In this document: one piece after another, positions 1 through 35,362 of the stretch
Numbering within the stretch: position 1 is the first letter of the stretch
How the letters are laid out: each line of letters starts with the position of its first letter
DNA from: a virus
Length of the DNA stretch: 35,362 nucleotides
Direction: 5' to 3' (one strand)
IMG/VR virus record: IMGVR_UViG_3300027973_000015
Location: 1 to 35,362 of that record
Made by a program: the position numbers and the translations under genes
The notes under the pieces: model-generated
What the model was told of the DNA's origin: nothing
The model's database searches: none
Seen by the model: only the letters and a program-made list of their open reading frames with translations

Positions 1-127
1 AATGTACAAAAAGAAGATGTAGATAATGTAATTGAAAAAGCAAAGCAATCTGGGGGGGAAATAGATAAATTAGGAAAAGATTTAGCTTCAAAATATGGTG
101 GAGTTGTTACACCTATAAACTATAAAT
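1..127. repeat. Terminal direct repeat, left copy (circular-contig overlap)
   Basis: The first 127 bases are identical to 35236-35362. The repeat lies inside one open reading frame that continues correctly through the join, so the molecule closes into a circle of 35235 bp. A length of 127 equals a common maximum assembly k-mer, so this is most likely an assembly overlap and not a physical terminal repeat. Confidence 0.95.
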
Positions 128-597
128 CAGAGGAATCTATTACCAGAAAGGTCAATAATGACTATGGGGGAAATATTAATGAATTAAAGGACTCTGTTAG
201 AAATACTGTAATAATAGACAATGAACAAGGTTTAAAATCAGCCGTCAAGGATTTGACTGATAACCCAAATACTTTAAGAATTAAAGTACAAAATCACGAA
301 TCTGACCCTTTAGGATATAGTGGTACTATTGCAAACGTTAAAATGAGTAATGGGTTAATTGGAGAAGTGCAAGTAAATAGTGCTAAAATGATTTATGCAA
401 AAGAAAACGAAGCCTCTGCAAAAGCAATTTTAGGTAATAGCAAATACAATCAAATAGCTAAGGAAACAGGAAAACCAGGGGGATTAGGTCATAAATTATA
501 CGAAGAGTATAGATTATTAGACCCTAAAAAAGATGCCAGTAAGATGTCTGAAATCGCAAATAAATCCAAAGAATATTATAAAAATTTTAGAGGATAA
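1..597 (+). CDS. Capsid protease fusion, C-terminal part: RelA/SpoT-like alarmone synthetase domain (5' end is at 34573)
   Basis: This is residues 222-419 of the gene that starts at 34573 and crosses the circular join; base 1 is a codon start, so there is no break in frame. The segment reads as a RelA/SpoT nucleotidyltransferase domain, the fold that moves pyrophosphate from ATP to GTP/GDP or, in toxSAS relatives, to other acceptors. Motifs in family order are: K263-S264 followed by SITRK; D285 in LKDSVRNTVI (metal ligand position); G326-Y327 (guanine-stacking loop); E343 in LIGEVQV (second acidic catalytic position); and GHKLYEEYR at 384-392, typical of the toxin-like branch. The His that often follows the GY motif in housekeeping enzymes is not evident. 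The DNA is visibly richer in A/T than the protease half, which suggests a swapped-in C-terminal module. Catalytic activity and the acceptor are inferred, not shown. Confidence 0.85.
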   Translation, partial: NVQKEDVDNVIEKAKQSGGEIDKLGKDLASKYGGVVTPINYKSEESITRKVNNDYGGNINELKDSVRNTVIIDNEQGLKSAVKDLTDNPNTLRIKVQNHESDPLGYSGTIANVKMSNGLIGEVQVNSAKMIYAKENEASAKAILGNSKYNQIAKETGKPGGLGHKLYEEYRLLDPKKDASKMSEIANKSKEYYKNFRG

Positions 598-623: not shown

Positions 624-842
624 ATGAAACATACGGAAATTTTAAATCTTTTAGCCTCAGGTAATGAAGTTTATTTTATCAATTCTTTTGATGAAATAGC
701 TTTTAAAAGTATTCCTAATGGGGGATATGAAGCTAAATTTAAAAATGGCAAACCATACACAATAGAAATTGGTTCTGAGCCATTAACACAAGCATTTTTA
801 GAAGGAAAAGTAATTACTAAATCGGAATACGAAAAATATTAA
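624..842 (+). CDS. Small hypothetical protein downstream of the synthetase fusion
   Basis: A 72-residue acidic-to-neutral protein starting MKHTEILNLLASGNEVYF. A TTG at 618 would add two residues, but the ATG at 624 is preferred. It lies 26 bases after the synthetase fusion on the same strand, so it is probably translated from the same message. It has no signal peptide, membrane segment or recognisable domain. Its last 26 bases overlap the convergent hydrolase gene tail to tail. Small genes directly after polymorphic-toxin domains are often immunity or accessory proteins; that role is only a guess from position. Confidence 0.7.
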   Translation: MKHTEILNLLASGNEVYFINSFDEIAFKSIPNGGYEAKFKNGKPYTIEIGSEPLTQAFLEGKVITKSEYEKY

Positions 843-1338
843 TTAATATTCCTTTTAAGTAAAATAACTTAAGCCTATTTGATAAAGGCTTATTAAATTT
901 GAAGTATATAATTTTGAATTGTTCTGATTCATTTATATACTTTTTAAATTTATGGTAATTCTTATTTCTTATAGATTCTCTAACATTACATATCCTATCA
1001 CATATCTTTACTATTGAAGCTATTTTGCTTTTAGATATTTCTTTGTAATAATTATCTATTGTATTTTTTTTAGTTAATAATTTTACATTATTATAAACTA
1101 TAATACTTATTTCTTTTATTTTATTTTCGTCCATATCAGTATCTTCTAATATATCGTGCAAAGCGCATACAGAAAGGATTTCATCATATTTATTACCTGT
1201 GATATTGTTTTGTTTACAAAATCTTTCTGCTTCAAACCAAACATCTAATAAATGATAAATGTAAGGCTTAGACCCATACTGCTGATACTTATGGTATTCA
1301 GCAGCAAGGGCAAGTGATTTATATCTTAGTGTTTGCAT
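817..1338 (-). CDS. Small alarmone hydrolase (HD domain, MESH1/SAH-like)
   Basis: A 173-residue single-domain HD phosphohydrolase of the RelA/SpoT hydrolase family, which removes the 3'-pyrophosphate of (p)ppGpp and related products using Mn2+. The expected motifs are present in order: H16 in the first helix, KPYIYH with H29, the HDILEDT motif with H61-D62 and E65-D66, LLTKK at 87-91, and VKICDRICNV with D114 and N118. All metal-binding positions are intact, so activity is predicted. There is no synthetase or regulatory domain, as in MESH1 and in SAH antitoxins paired with toxSAS synthetases. It is the second gene of a two-gene minus-strand unit, 3 bases after its neighbour, and converges on the RelA/SpoT-like fusion gene. 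The likely role is to neutralise the product of that fusion. The gene is AT-rich compared with the structural genes. Confidence 0.88.
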   Translation of the reverse strand: MQTLRYKSLALAAEYHKYQQYGSKPYIYHLLDVWFEAERFCKQNNITGNKYDEILSVCALHDILEDTDMDENKIKEISIIVYNNVKLLTKKNTIDNYYKEISKSKIASIVKICDRICNVRESIRNKNYHKFKKYINESEQFKIIYFKFNKPLSNRLKLFYLKGILINIFRIPI

Positions 1339-1341
1339 ATT

Positions 1342-1917
1342 TTAAGCGTACCAACTTGAATAAACTCCAGATTCTTGATTTTTGTACTCATAAAAGCCTC
1401 CGTATTGTGCTTTGATATGATAACCAATGTTGCCGTTATATCCAACTGAAAGGATAACCCTTTTTAAAATCGGCTCTCCAATAAAAGCATTTTCAACTGG
1501 CTTAACATTCGCACACATAAAACCTTCGCTTCCTTCGACAAAACTTTTAGCTATTTTTTGAATCATTATCGATTTTGATTTGACTTCAATAACTTGGTAA
1601 AAGCTAATGTTTGTCTGTTCATATCCCCAACTATTGTAGAATATTGAACCAACCTCAAAGTTATGACTCATATTTTTTTGAGCCTCTTTTTTAAGAGCCT
1701 TTCTCTCATTTTCAGCTTTAATGTTTTTTTCAACCTTTTCAATCCATTCATTACAAAATTCAATCATACGTTCAACGCTTCTGAATCTGTAATTAAATAA
1801 AGCTTTTGGGAAACGAGCCTTACTTGCTTTTTTCATACAACAACCAATAATCATTGGTTCATTTTTAAGAATGAGAACAAATCCCAAACTTTCATACTTT
1901 TCAATCAAATTTTTCAT
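1342..1917 (-). CDS. Conserved-looking hypothetical protein, first gene of the minus-strand unit
   Basis: A 191-residue soluble protein. The N-terminal half (about 1-80) is basic and helical (EWIEKVEKNIKAENERKALK). The C-terminal half (about 85-191) resembles a compact beta-rich domain with aromatic motifs such as FYNSWGYEQTNISFYQV and ends YSSWYA. I have seen this kind of GxxFYxSWGYEQTNxxFYQV protein as an unnamed family in mobile elements but cannot assign a function. It precedes the alarmone hydrolase and shares its promoter, so it may help control or support it. Confidence 0.8.
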   Translation of the reverse strand: MKNLIEKYESLGFVLILKNEPMIIGCCMKKASKARFPKALFNYRFRSVERMIEFCNEWIEKVEKNIKAENERKALKKEAQKNMSHNFEVGSIFYNSWGYEQTNISFYQVIEVKSKSIMIQKIAKSFVEGSEGFMCANVKPVENAFIGEPILKRVILSVGYNGNIGYHIKAQYGGFYEYKNQESGVYSSWYA

Positions 1918-1948: not shown

Positions 1949-1982
1949 CAAATATACAAACTTTTCACAATCCACAATCAAA
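1949..1982 (-). promoter_or_regulatory. Bacteroidota-type promoter for the minus-strand hydrolase unit
   Basis: Read on the minus strand, TTTG (1982-1979) is followed after 22 bp by TATATTTG (1956-1949), a perfect match to the Bacteroidota -7 box TAnnTTTG. The start codon of the first minus gene (1917) is 31 bases further. This predicts expression by the unmodified host polymerase, independent of the capsid genes. Confidence 0.65.
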
Positions 1983-2089: not shown

Positions 2090-2674
2090 ATGAACGCAAG
2101 AGATGCAATTATGCAAATTAGGGCTTTGTTCGAAGATATGCCAATGGATGCTCCTGCACCTGTTGAAGCACCAATCGAAGAGGTACCTGTTACATTCGCA
2201 GAATATAGCCTTATGGACGGAACGAAGGTTATGATTAGCGAACTTGCTATTGGTGGCGAAGTTACTTTAGCAGACGGAAGTCCTGCTCCTGTTGGCGAAC
2301 ACCAATTAGCTGACGGCACTAAAATTGTTTTAGACGATGCTGCTAAAATCTTATCTATTGAAACCCCAGAAGCAGAAGCTAAAGAAGCTGACGAAAACCC
2401 TGCTGAAATGGGTAAAAAGTATGATGAGAAAATGGCTGACGAAATTACAAACTTAGTAGCTGAAAACGAAAATCTTAAAACACAAGTAGCACAATTAGAG
2501 GCAAAAGTTAAGAATGGCTTTAGTCAAGTAGCTGAATTAATAGAGGCACTTACTAAGACACCTAACGCTGAACCTATTGCGCAACCAAAACAAAACTTCG
2601 GTTCTAACGTAACAACTCATTCAATGAAGTACGATAGAATTGAGAAATTTAGAAACGCTTTATTAAACAAATAA
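2090..2674 (+). CDS. Probable head scaffolding protein
   Basis: A 194-residue acidic protein from the ATG at 2090 (MNARDAIMQIRALFEDMP). An in-frame ATG at 2033 would add an AT-derived tail (VNLNDKHIILFIFKEKS) unlike the rest and is rejected. The middle carries a small Gly/Asp-rich beta segment (DGTKVMISELAIGGEVTLADG). The second half is a coiled coil (about 125-155) rich in Glu, Lys and Leu, and a short basic helix (YDRIEKFRNALLNK) ends the protein. This is the usual plan of scaffolds, whose C-terminal helix binds the major capsid protein. It lies 12 bases before the major capsid gene. No sequence family was recognised with certainty. Confidence 0.7.
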   Translation: MNARDAIMQIRALFEDMPMDAPAPVEAPIEEVPVTFAEYSLMDGTKVMISELAIGGEVTLADGSPAPVGEHQLADGTKIVLDDAAKILSIETPEAEAKEADENPAEMGKKYDEKMADEITNLVAENENLKTQVAQLEAKVKNGFSQVAELIEALTKTPNAEPIAQPKQNFGSNVTTHSMKYDRIEKFRNALLNK

Positions 2675-19399: not shown

Positions 19400-19629
19400 A
19401 ACACAGAAATTATTTAGACCATTACAGAAGTAACTACGAAATGGTGCAGAACGGATATGTAAGAAATATAGATTTAGACATCTTAAAAATGTACGAGCAT
19501 ATTTATCGAAAGTATATGAGTCCAGATTTCATATTAACAGTATGGTGCAGCCATTGTATATTTGATATGATTAAAAGGCTTTACGAATGGTACGATTTAC
19601 AACCTAAAAATAAAAAAAAGAATGGCTAA
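19381..19629 (+). CDS. Hypothetical helical protein
   Basis: An 82-residue protein starting MELMEIEHRNYLDHYRSN (ATG at 19381; a second ATG is three codons in). A conserved-looking stretch is YRKYMSPDFILTVWCSHCIF, with CSHC that might bind metal. It ends in a Lys-rich tail. It overlaps both neighbours by 8-19 bases. No function assigned. Confidence 0.6.
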   Translation: MELMEIEHRNYLDHYRSNYEMVQNGYVRNIDLDILKMYEHIYRKYMSPDFILTVWCSHCIFDMIKRLYEWYDLQPKNKKKNG

Positions 19630-20101
19630 CTTTATCCACCCTACCGCTATTATTGGCGATAACGTAATTATTGGAGACGGAAACTACATTGGTGCTTATT
19701 GTATTATCGGAGACCCTGCTGAACATAAGAAGTTTTGGAATAAAAAAAAGGGCAAAGTTTACATAGGCGATAACAATGTTATTACAGGACTTGTAACAAT
19801 AGATGCCGGAACTGAGATTGATACCTTTATAGGCAATAATTGTTTTATAATGAAACACGCACACATCGGACACGATTGCACAATCTTAGACAATGTAACA
19901 ATTAGCTGCGGAGCAAAAATAGGTGGGCATTCTATTGTAGATAAAGGTGCTAACATAGGACTTAATGCAGTTCTACACCAGTTTGCAAACGTAGGAGAGA
20001 ATTGTATGGTGGGGGCAAGTGCCTTTGTAAAAGGAGATGCAAAACCAAATACTAAATATGCAGGAGTACCGGCAAGGGAAATAGGCTCAAACATAAGATA
20101 A
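19622..20101 (+). CDS. Left-handed beta-helix acyltransferase (LpxA-like)
   Basis: A 159-residue protein made of hexapeptide repeats ([IV]-G-x-x-x-x): IHPTAIIGDNVIIGDGNYIG, IGDNNVITG, then FIMKHAHIGHDCTILDNV (His as likely catalytic base) and a final VPAREIG turn. Such trimers transfer acyl or acetyl groups to sugars. It heads a three-gene sugar set with the two glycosyltransferases, with one shared base to the next gene. Confidence 0.88.
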   Translation: MANFIHPTAIIGDNVIIGDGNYIGAYCIIGDPAEHKKFWNKKKGKVYIGDNNVITGLVTIDAGTEIDTFIGNNCFIMKHAHIGHDCTILDNVTISCGAKIGGHSIVDKGANIGLNAVLHQFANVGENCMVGASAFVKGDAKPNTKYAGVPAREIGSNIR

Positions 20102-20784
20102 TGAAAGTAGCTATTTTATTACTTGCACAAAACAGACACGACTTAACTCAGCGTGTAATTAAGCAAAACTTTTTTAACTCTGGTTACAATGCGGACTGCT
20201 TCTTAATAGATAACGGCAGCGACACACACGAAAACTTTAACTACTCTTTTGCCGGTTATGACTTATCAAAAGAAAAGAGGGGCATAGCAGCCGGAGTAAA
20301 CGCAGGACTTAGGATAACTCAGAATTATGATGCGGTTTGTTTATTAGCTAATGATATTTTATTGCCGCAAGATTGGTTAGCTAAGTTTGTTTTGTTTGCA
20401 CAACGAATAGAGAAGACAGGCATAATAGGAATACATTGCGTAGAAGATTTGCCACCAATAGTAGACGGGGTACATAAAACACACACACCCTTTGGAGATA
20501 ACTTTATCACTCGTGAACTTATAGATGCGGTTGGCGGTTACAATGAAGCCTATGACCCTTACGGAATGCAGGACAGAGATTATGGGGAACGTGCAACAAT
20601 ATCAGGCTTTACTAATTACTACCTACCGGATATGAGGTCGGAACACATAGGACACGATGTAGGCAACGGAACAGATTACAGACGAATGAAGGACGAAAGT
20701 TTACAAAGGGCGCAAAGCGTCTGGGAAAAATACCAAGATATATATCACAACCAAAAGAATGTAAGATGCGAATACTTTGTATAA
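20101..20784 (+). CDS. Glycosyltransferase family 2-like (GT-A fold)
   Basis: A 227-residue protein. The N-terminal nucleotide-sugar fold is MKVAILLLAQNRHDLTQRVI with DNGSD at 37-41, the GIAAGVNAGL helix (about 62-71), and LLANDI near 81-86 in the place of the DxD motif. The C-terminal acceptor part includes DPYGMQDRDYGERA, the typical ED/QD-type base region. It would transfer a sugar from a nucleotide donor. Confidence 0.85.
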   Translation: MKVAILLLAQNRHDLTQRVIKQNFFNSGYNADCFLIDNGSDTHENFNYSFAGYDLSKEKRGIAAGVNAGLRITQNYDAVCLLANDILLPQDWLAKFVLFAQRIEKTGIIGIHCVEDLPPIVDGVHKTHTPFGDNFITRELIDAVGGYNEAYDPYGMQDRDYGERATISGFTNYYLPDMRSEHIGHDVGNGTDYRRMKDESLQRAQSVWEKYQDIYHNQKNVRCEYFV

Positions 20785-21761
20785 CTTCAGCCAACTCAGG
20801 CGTAGGACTGCATAGAATAATGATGCCGATAGTACACTTAGAAAAAGAGTACGCACTTATAACCGATGTATTGAATGACGAACTACTTGAGCAGGGTTGG
20901 GACATTGTGTTAATGAATAGAATGCTTAACGAGATTGATGCAAAGCAAATGGACACTTGGCGCACTAAGTACGGCTTTAAGTTAGTAGTCGATAACGATG
21001 ACCATTGGGAACTTAGCGAAAGCCATTTGTTATATTACCGATACAAATACAATAACATCGGCAAACAGATTACCGATTACTTAGAGATTGCAGACCTTTG
21101 CACAACCACACACGAAAGGTTAGCAGCAGAGATAAGCCTTTACAATAAGAACGTTCACATATTACCAAACGCTTTACCTTATGGGCAAGAGCAGTTCCAG
21201 GATAATAAGACCGAAGATTACAAAGTAAGATTGTTTTGGTCAGGTAGCGGAACGCACGAAAGGGATATTGAAATACTTAGGCAGCCGTTTAAAAGGTTAC
21301 AAGGTATGAATATAAGAACTGTGATAGCAGGTTACAACGATGCAGAGAAACCTATCTGGGATAAAATGATTGACGCCTTTACTTGCGGACTAAAGCTTAA
21401 CCCTACGATTTATAATTATGCAAGGGTTACGGAATATATGGGAGCATATACGGACTCAGACATTTCAGTTATCCCTTTGGTAGATAACAAGTTCAACGCT
21501 ATGAAGTCAAATTTAAAGGTATTAGAAACGGCTGCTAAAAAGAACCCTGCCATTGTAAGTATGGTTAATCCTTACTTAGATATGCCGGTACACTATGTAA
21601 AAAGCCAGAAGGATTGGAACATACATATAAGAAATTTGGTCAATGATGCGGATATGAGAAAGGAAAGCGGACAAAAGCTATTTGAGTTCTGCGAAAAGAA
21701 GTATAACTTTGACGAGATAAATTTAGACCGAAAGTATATTTATAGTAAACTATGCCAGTAA
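20766..21761 (+). CDS. Glycosyltransferase family 1-like (GT-B fold)
   Basis: A 331-residue protein. Marks are RILCITSANSGVGLHRI at the start, the VVDNDDHW segment, ADLCTTTHERLAAEI, NVHILPNALPY, and a C-terminal donor-binding half beginning VRLFWSGSGTHERDIEIL and containing DSDISVIPL and NLKVLETAA. The acceptor is unknown. It overlaps the GT2 gene by 19 bases, so the two are translated together. Confidence 0.88.
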   Translation: MRILCITSANSGVGLHRIMMPIVHLEKEYALITDVLNDELLEQGWDIVLMNRMLNEIDAKQMDTWRTKYGFKLVVDNDDHWELSESHLLYYRYKYNNIGKQITDYLEIADLCTTTHERLAAEISLYNKNVHILPNALPYGQEQFQDNKTEDYKVRLFWSGSGTHERDIEILRQPFKRLQGMNIRTVIAGYNDAEKPIWDKMIDAFTCGLKLNPTIYNYARVTEYMGAYTDSDISVIPLVDNKFNAMKSNLKVLETAAKKNPAIVSMVNPYLDMPVHYVKSQKDWNIHIRNLVNDADMRKESGQKLFEFCEKKYNFDEINLDRKYIYSKLCQ

Positions 21762-24706: not shown

Positions 24707-24733
24707 TTGCAACAAGGTTACAAAAATAAATTT
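24707..24733. repeat. 27-bp repeat, copy 2, operator-like dyad
   Basis: Identical to 14935-14961. The dyad TTGCAAC-AAG-GTTACAA occupies 24707-24723. The repeat starts just after the terL stop and its end overlaps the -33 element of the promoter below. Confidence 0.8.
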
Positions 24734-24761
24734 GGTGGATTGTGTAAAACTTGTATATTTG
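24731..24761 (+). promoter_or_regulatory. Bacteroidota-type promoter for the accessory genes
   Basis: TTTG (24731-24734), 19-bp spacer, TATATTTG (24754-24761): a full match to the consensus. It would transcribe the small genes from 24790 onward. The overlap of the 27-bp repeat with the -33 box suggests repression or activation by a protein bound there. Confidence 0.75.
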
Positions 24762-34572: not shown

Positions 34573-35362
34573 ATGGACTTACCTGTTTATTTATTAGACA
34601 TTAGCGAGGATATGAATGACGATGCCGAGGTCGATTATGTGGCACTCGTTGACAAACCTGCTATACAAAAGAACTGGAATGCATTTAAAAATCAACAACG
34701 TTTTGAAGTGGTTAGCGAAGATAAGCGTATTATTTCTGGACCTCTTATGCTTGCTGACGTACCTATTTTTAGGAGCGATGCTACTTATGGCGATTACTAT
34801 GTTGTCTTTTCTAAAGATACTATTTTTAAGATTGCGCAAAAGTTTTTCAAAAGAGGCTACCAATCAAACGTAAACTTGATGCACTCTCCTGACAAACAAG
34901 TCGAAGGTGTTACTATGTTTGAAAGCTTTATTACAGACGAAAGCAGAGGCATACAACCAATGAAAGGTTTTGAAGATGCACCTGACGGGTCGTGGTTTGG
35001 TTCTTTTAAAGTAGACAACGAAGGGGTGTGGAACGATGTTAAAGAGGGTAAATTCAAAGGCTTTAGTGTAGAGGGATTGTTTACTTACAAGACAAAGCCT
35101 AACAAAGAACAAGAGTTAATGAATCAAGTATATAGAATACTTGAGCAAGTTAATTTTGGCGGACCTGGTAGTGGTAGAAGGTCAGAAGGTGGTGGGGACA
35201 AAGAAACAACTGTAAGCGCTCCTACTTCAAAAATAAATGTACAAAAAGAAGATGTAGATAATGTAATTGAAAAAGCAAAGCAATCTGGGGGGGAAATAGA
35301 TAAATTAGGAAAAGATTTAGCTTCAAAATATGGTGGAGTTGTTACACCTATAAACTATAAAT
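34573..35362 (+). CDS. Capsid maturation protease (XkdF-like), N-terminal part of a fusion with a RelA/SpoT-like synthetase
   Basis: The gene starts at ATG 34573 (MDLPVYLLDI) and continues across the join to 597, making 419 residues. Residues 1-175 have the plan of XkdF-type prohead serine proteases: YVALVDKPAIQKNW (about 22-35), VNLMHSPDKQVEG with probable catalytic His104, and FKGFSVEGLF with probable nucleophile Ser165. These enzymes cleave the scaffold and mature the capsid from inside the procapsid. Residues 196-207 (GGPGSGRRSEGG) form a Gly-rich linker common after phage head domains. From about 240 the protein becomes the synthetase domain described at 1-597. Self-cleavage in the linker could leave the synthetase free inside the head. 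The last 127 bases repeat 1-127. Confidence 0.85.
   Translation, partial: MDLPVYLLDISEDMNDDAEVDYVALVDKPAIQKNWNAFKNQQRFEVVSEDKRIISGPLMLADVPIFRSDATYGDYYVVFSKDTIFKIAQKFFKRGYQSNVNLMHSPDKQVEGVTMFESFITDESRGIQPMKGFEDAPDGSWFGSFKVDNEGVWNDVKEGKFKGFSVEGLFTYKTKPNKEQELMNQVYRILEQVNFGGPGSGRRSEGGGDKETTVSAPTSKINVQKEDVDNVIEKAKQSGGEIDKLGKDLASKYGGVVTPINYK
35236..35362. repeat. Terminal direct repeat, right copy (circular-contig overlap)
   Basis: Exact copy of 1-127. Removing one copy gives a circular sequence of 35235 bp. Confidence 0.95.

Follow-up and report, generated by a model that had tools for sequence, protein, structure and literature searches.

In a 35,362-nucleotide viral genome (IMG/VR record IMGVR_UViG_3300027973_000015, analysed in full and here called the window), the gene at 817-1338 encodes a small alarmone hydrolase (SAH) that probably acts as enzymatic antidote within a polymorphic-toxin cassette; the carrier of this cassette is a phage head protein, and its antidote slot is transcribed separately. 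The predicted toxin is an alarmone synthetase fused to a prohead protease. Among relatives of this phage, the cargo of the protease has changed many times and SAH has followed the synthetase each time, so that the link between an alarmone hydrolase and a toxin carried by a phage rests on a natural swap experiment and not on proximity alone. The last 127 bp of the record repeat its beginning directly; the map is therefore circular, and the synthetase fusion runs from 34573 to 35235 and continues from 1 to 597. The features of the region are:

34573-35157, plus strand: XkdF-type prohead protease domain, the carrier part of the fusion (PF14550, E 2.4e-14; PHROG head maturation proteases)
35158-35181, plus strand: GGPGSGRR linker, the left cassette edge, with the homology break just past it
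35236-35362: 127-bp direct repeat of window 1-127
1-597, plus strand: Tas1/Apk-type alarmone synthetase domain by phmmer and profile match to Tas1, the C-terminal part of the fusion
624-842, plus strand: predicted immunity protein of 72 amino acids, Tis1/IapK-like by Foldseek, position and allele linkage (listed as 618-842 from a TTG start)
817-1338, minus strand: SAH, 173 amino acids, by PHROG, PDB, residue, model and dN/dS evidence
1342-1917, minus strand: orf1342, 191 amino acids, phrog_37844, a constant gene that opens the antidote operon and occurs in each of the 45 loci with cargo
2090-2674, plus strand: scaffold-like gene that comes after the cassette and, in relatives without cargo, immediately after the protease

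The SAH gene

The product of 817-1338 matched phrog_990 ('metal-dependent phosphohydrolase') in the PHROG search (E 9e-30), and its best PDB match by sequence was the SAH of P. aeruginosa (PaSAH, 6yvc; E 5e-7 in the sequence search and 1e-8 in the profile search). The AlphaFold model had a pLDDT of 92.7, and a Foldseek comparison of this model with the PDB placed PaSAH (6z3o/6yvc) on top with a probability of 1.00; Mesh1 and the B. caccae (p)ppApp hydrolase 7smg were also among the best matches. The earlier note on this DNA had described a single-domain SAH with intact H29, HD61-62, ED65-66, and D114, and the alignment bore this out: H16, H29, H61-D62, E65-D66, K111, D114, and N118 are present and invariant across 22 aligned homologues with identities as low as 25%. 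The dN/dS ratios of 0.12-0.22 in diverged pairs show that this is a real, constrained gene under purifying selection, and its product has the PaSAH/Mesh1 fold. With PaSAH and other stand-alone SAHs it shares this fold and the catalytic residues; however, it is just ~22-24% identical to them and lies in another genomic context. PaSAH is reported to have a 5-10-fold preference for adenine alarmones (PMC10434055). In PADLOC, neither SAH nor the synthetase had a match.

SAH tracks the synthetase cargo

In all 31 close SAH relatives from the viral collection (31/31), the synthetase, the Tis1-like open reading frame (ORF), SAH, and orf1342 were kept, although in a few the fusion is truncated by a contig end. 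The same layout was found in a diverged set (L215-L223), at identities of ~50% for the synthetase, ~33% for SAH, and ~40-46% for orf1342, with a Tis1-like ORF of 74-76 amino acids in five of the six that were read closely. Against the circularity of SAH and synthetase queries, further searches were run with the protease and with orf1342. These revealed three states of the protease: without cargo, with the synthetase, or with a zeta-toxin domain (PF06414, E 2e-27) that follows a linker of the same kind.

Among 99 unique protease loci, every synthetase locus carried an inverted SAH and orf1342 (30/30), and every zeta locus carried orf1342 together with an inverted ORF of 56-57 amino acids in the SAH slot (15/15), SAH itself being found in none (0/15). 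The cargo-less loci had no SAH, small ORF, or orf1342 at that place (54/54); there the protease ends at ~194 amino acids and the scaffold gene begins 46 bp further on (53/54). SAH was thus seen in 0 of the 69 cargo-less or zeta loci, some of which have a protease up to 98% identical. When only loci fetched without an SAH or synthetase query were counted (19 synthetase, 15 zeta, and 54 cargo-less), SAH was present in 19/19 and 0/69, respectively. On the tree of the capsid protein, for which the annotated phage collection gave no match, the synthetase label must change at least 10 times on supported branches; this count is a sounder measure of association than the Fisher p-value, which ignores relatedness, and it means that the coupling of SAH and synthetase was kept through many cargo changes. 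A chance neighbourhood arising from conserved gene order is ruled out by these repeated changes. The pairing put forward in the earlier note also withstood a comparison aimed at loci that keep one gene without the other (30/30 against 0/69).

The small ORF of the zeta loci belongs to no known family and, occupying the convergent antidote slot, probably represents a new family of zeta antitoxins. The zeta loci are L098 (6001-7628), L167, L168, L174, L177, L179, L184, L187, L191, L200, L204, L206, L210, L211, and L213.

The same counts bear on the view that SAH is a general phage counter-measure to host alarmones, produced in the stringent response or by a host defence based on toxic small alarmone synthetases (toxSAS), and that its proximity to the synthetase reflects gene order only. 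Orphan SAHs are indeed common in other phages (for example, 65 annotated records, mostly from Pseudomonas phages), and the window SAH scores higher against them than against the SAHs linked to MuF fusions. A gene with such a general role would not be expected to follow the cargo, however, and the absence of SAH from all cargo-less and zeta loci makes this explanation improbable; a cargo-independent anti-alarmone gene is ruled out within this lineage. The stand-alone SAHs of Pseudomonas and Vibrio phages (L255:1501-1971, L256:1459-1962, and L259:1453-1956), for which our searches showed no synthetase, are possibly anti-alarmone genes.

Edges of the exchanged cassette

Four pairs of near-identical phages with different cargo (L193/L174, L060/L177, L020/L206, and L052/L167) were compared at the DNA level. 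Identity was high over the protease and linker, dropped at about nucleotide 630 of the protease gene, was still elevated over orf1342, and was gone beyond the orf1342 end. With homology breaking off at the linker on one side and at the end of orf1342 on the other, toxin and antidote are exchanged together: the cassette, which was swapped repeatedly, consists of the toxin domain, the Tis1-like ORF, and the antidote, and the protease and orf1342 are constant. As in polymorphic toxins, a constant N-terminal carrier bears an exchangeable C-terminal toxin, and the immunity gene is exchanged with the toxin. The N-terminus of the fusion is a PF14550 XkdF protease, so it does not have the MuF domain of MuF polymorphic toxins.

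The GGPGSGRR linker is constant across the cargo-bearing loci and missing from the cargo-less ones. By its protease, the nearest annotated phage is Nonlabens phage P12024L (32% identity), whose protease gene encodes 349 amino acids (L258:179-1228), and phrog_24921, with 349 positions, covers the window protease as well as the scaffold. This is consistent with insertion of the cargo between the two halves of one ancestral protease-scaffold gene.

The fused synthetase resembles Tas1

The synthetase domain matched Tas1 (6ox6_A) with a phmmer E-value of 6.5e-40 over 188 residues and a profile E-value of 1.6e-40, and both contain the motifs KD-x-x-RNT, GYSG, and E-[VI]-Q-V-N. In sequence searches of the PDB, Tas1 was the only alarmone synthetase matched, and no entry of the tRNA-modifying toxSAS branch (FaRel2/PhRel/CapRel) appeared up to an E-value of 10. 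From these matches, the fused enzyme is predicted to be a Tas1/Apk-like maker of (p)ppApp and not of the tRNA-modifying type. The suggestion of tRNA pyrophosphorylation in the earlier note is therefore not upheld. A version of the system in which a tRNA-pyrophosphorylating toxSAS is countered by SAH stripping pyrophosphate from tRNA would be in keeping with the fact that SAHs can be toxSAS antitoxins (ATfaRel of C. marina is listed among the SAHs; PMC10434055), but it finds no support in the PDB searches, and the exclusive Tas1 match and shared motifs make it very unlikely. A relative of the synthetase domain (35.6% identity) is encoded on an Azospirillum oryzae plasmid (NZ_CP054617.1, 438314-438886).

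A second predicted immunity protein

The 72-residue ORF (orf618) lies between the fusion and SAH, on the strand of the fusion and directly behind the toxin, and its last 26 bp are shared with the 3' end of SAH, which runs in the opposite direction. The earlier note had SAH converging on the synthetase fusion; the two are on opposite strands as described, but the gene that adjoins the fusion is this ORF and not SAH. The convergent ends showed no intrinsic terminator between them, and the RNA fold of 800-880 had a z-score of only -2.3.

Sequence searches of Pfam, PHROGs, NCBIfam, PADLOC, and the PDB returned no match for orf618; the fold search alone gave one. With a model of pLDDT 75, Foldseek ranked Tis1 (6ox6_B) first of 350,542 PDB chains (probability 1.00, TMq 0.66, E 0.011). 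Tis1 is the immunity protein that blocks Tas1. The E-value taken alone is weak; the assignment becomes convincing because Tis1 is the partner of Tas1, which is the best match of the synthetase itself. Tis1-like ORFs form a conserved family with a conserved position behind the toxin and travel with the synthetase allele. On the strength of the modelled fold, 624-842 is thus a predicted second immunity gene, which the earlier note had overlooked.

The two immunity genes behave differently in allele exchange. Relative to the window, the synthetase and Tis1-like ORF of L024, L029, L030, and L032 are 83-88% identical, compared with 68-69% for SAH and protease. Between L017 and L029, synonymous divergence (dS) was 0.31 for SAH, ~2.0 for the synthetase, and ~1.1 for the Tis1-like ORF. 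These values show that one SAH lineage served two synthetase alleles and that the Tis1-like protein moved with its toxin. A shared SAH and a toxin-bound Tis1-like ORF are what would be expected of product hydrolysis and of binding, respectively, and match the behaviour reported for MuF-Apk2 modules, in which Aph1 is interchangeable and hydrolyses the product, whereas IapK binds and is mainly toxin-specific (PMC12226406).

In tests of MuF-Apk2, Aph1 gave partial and IapK full rescue (PMC12226406), which would favour the Tis1-like ORF as the sole working immunity protein, with SAH redundant or decaying. We give this alternative little credence: the catalytic residues are invariant, the dN/dS ratios are low (0.12-0.22), and SAH is kept in all 30 synthetase loci.

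The probable antidote operon and its promoter-like box

In all 45 cargo-bearing loci the antidote lies on the opposite strand from the toxin, and it follows from this orientation that SAH is expressed separately from it. SAH starts 3 bp behind orf1342; with this spacing on the minus strand, the two probably form one operon with SAH as its second gene. Two copies of a promoter-like box were found:

1949-1978, minus strand: 30-bp Bacteroidota-type promoter-like box, TTG-N18-TATATTTG, a consensus match ending 31 bp before orf1342 and placed 39 bp before the orf1342 start
24732-24761, plus strand: second copy of the box, just behind the terminase gene and before a run of small genes

The search pattern was written from these two window sites themselves, and at that similarity 0 occurrences are expected by chance. 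In cargo-less relatives (L181, L183, L186, and L189), a homologue of orf1342 follows the terminase gene and is preceded by a closely similar promoter-like leader; the full motif was present upstream in three of the four loci read, and a near copy in the fourth. This arrangement suggests a relocated promoter-plus-orf1342 unit with the antidote travelling behind it. Of the separate host-type promoter that the earlier note had assigned to SAH, the Bacteroidota-type box itself stands, but it precedes orf1342 and not SAH.

Two observations speak against the proposed antidote role or its regulation. The box is not universal: of 46 loci (the window and 45 relatives), 19 had the full motif no more than 240 bp from orf1342, and a universal promoter before the antidote operon is accordingly unconfirmed. 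The window SAH has the motif CDRxCN in place of the KLxDLxxN of MuF-linked SAHs, and the latter form a branch of their own (support 99/97). A single clade of all Apk-linked SAHs was nevertheless not rejected (p-AU 0.31).

Comparison with known systems

That a synthetase on a capsid protein is paired with a hydrolase is not in itself new, having been described for MuF-Apk2 prophages (PMC12226406). In the MuF-Apk2/IapK/Aph1 modules of B. caccae and S. pneumoniae, as in the window, the synthetase sits on a phage head protein and is accompanied by a toxin-specific small binding protein and a separate, interchangeable hydrolase. The window differs in its carrier, an XkdF-type prohead protease instead of MuF; in its hydrolase, which comes from another SAH branch and is encoded, with a promoter-like box of its own, downstream of orf1342 on the other strand; and in its cargo, which alternates with a zeta toxin. 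The MuF-Apk2 phages are temperate; in the window, no integrase was seen among the ORFs scanned, which were part of the total. The Tas1/Tis1 (Apk1) pair of P. aeruginosa type VI secretion (6ox6) has a homologous synthetase and the fold of the small ORF; its carrier and delivery route differ, and no phage head protein is involved. The Bxa/Bsi/BAH system of a Bacteroides stercoris prophage (PMC11699363) follows the same logic of a head-protein toxin with one binding and one enzymatic immunity protein, but uses ADP-ribosylation chemistry and a MuF carrier.

The literature searched, a limited library, contained no earlier report of a prohead protease as toxin carrier; the present cassette adds a head-maturation protease to the carriers of polymorphic toxins.

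Riemerella prophages and gut phages also have the trio of synthetase, small ORF, and SAH, there all on a single strand (L062:4996-7272, L094:4966-7237, L095:4966-7240, and L097:5743-7219). In L062 and the Riemerella prophages L094 and L095, MuF-like fusions lie behind the portal gene; the synthetase of L097 is broken.

Proposed mechanism

For catalysis, nucleotide specificity, neutralisation, virion delivery, and timing, we infer the following course. With the Tas1/Apk-type synthetase on the C-terminus of the XkdF-type protease, the toxin would be built into the prohead. The Tis1/IapK-like protein would block the active site of the synthetase and hold the toxin off during its production. Apk enzymes make (p)ppApp and thereby deplete ADP and ATP (PMC12691689); by hydrolysing leaked product, most likely (p)ppApp, SAH would regenerate ADP/ATP and thereby shield the producing cell, and it might also shield the newly infected cell after genome expression. 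The alternative block consists of a zeta-toxin domain with the 57-residue ORF in the same slot.

A more speculative extension, which we consider possible but doubtful, is that these phages, in which no integrase was seen among the ORFs scanned, inject the toxin with the DNA while the antidote is encoded in a separately transcribed operon of the genome, so that a cell destroying or unable to express the genome would be poisoned and a cell expressing it spared. Alongside MuF, the prohead protease would make up a second type of head-protein carrier, whose exchangeable cargo would be either an ATP-depleting Apk or a zeta-type poison. With this cassette, the purpose of head-borne phage toxins becomes directly testable, as does the question of whether the producing or the receiving cell needs the antidote.

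Elsewhere in the window, a hexapeptide transferase gene and two glycosyltransferase-like genes are clustered at 19622-21761 on the plus strand.
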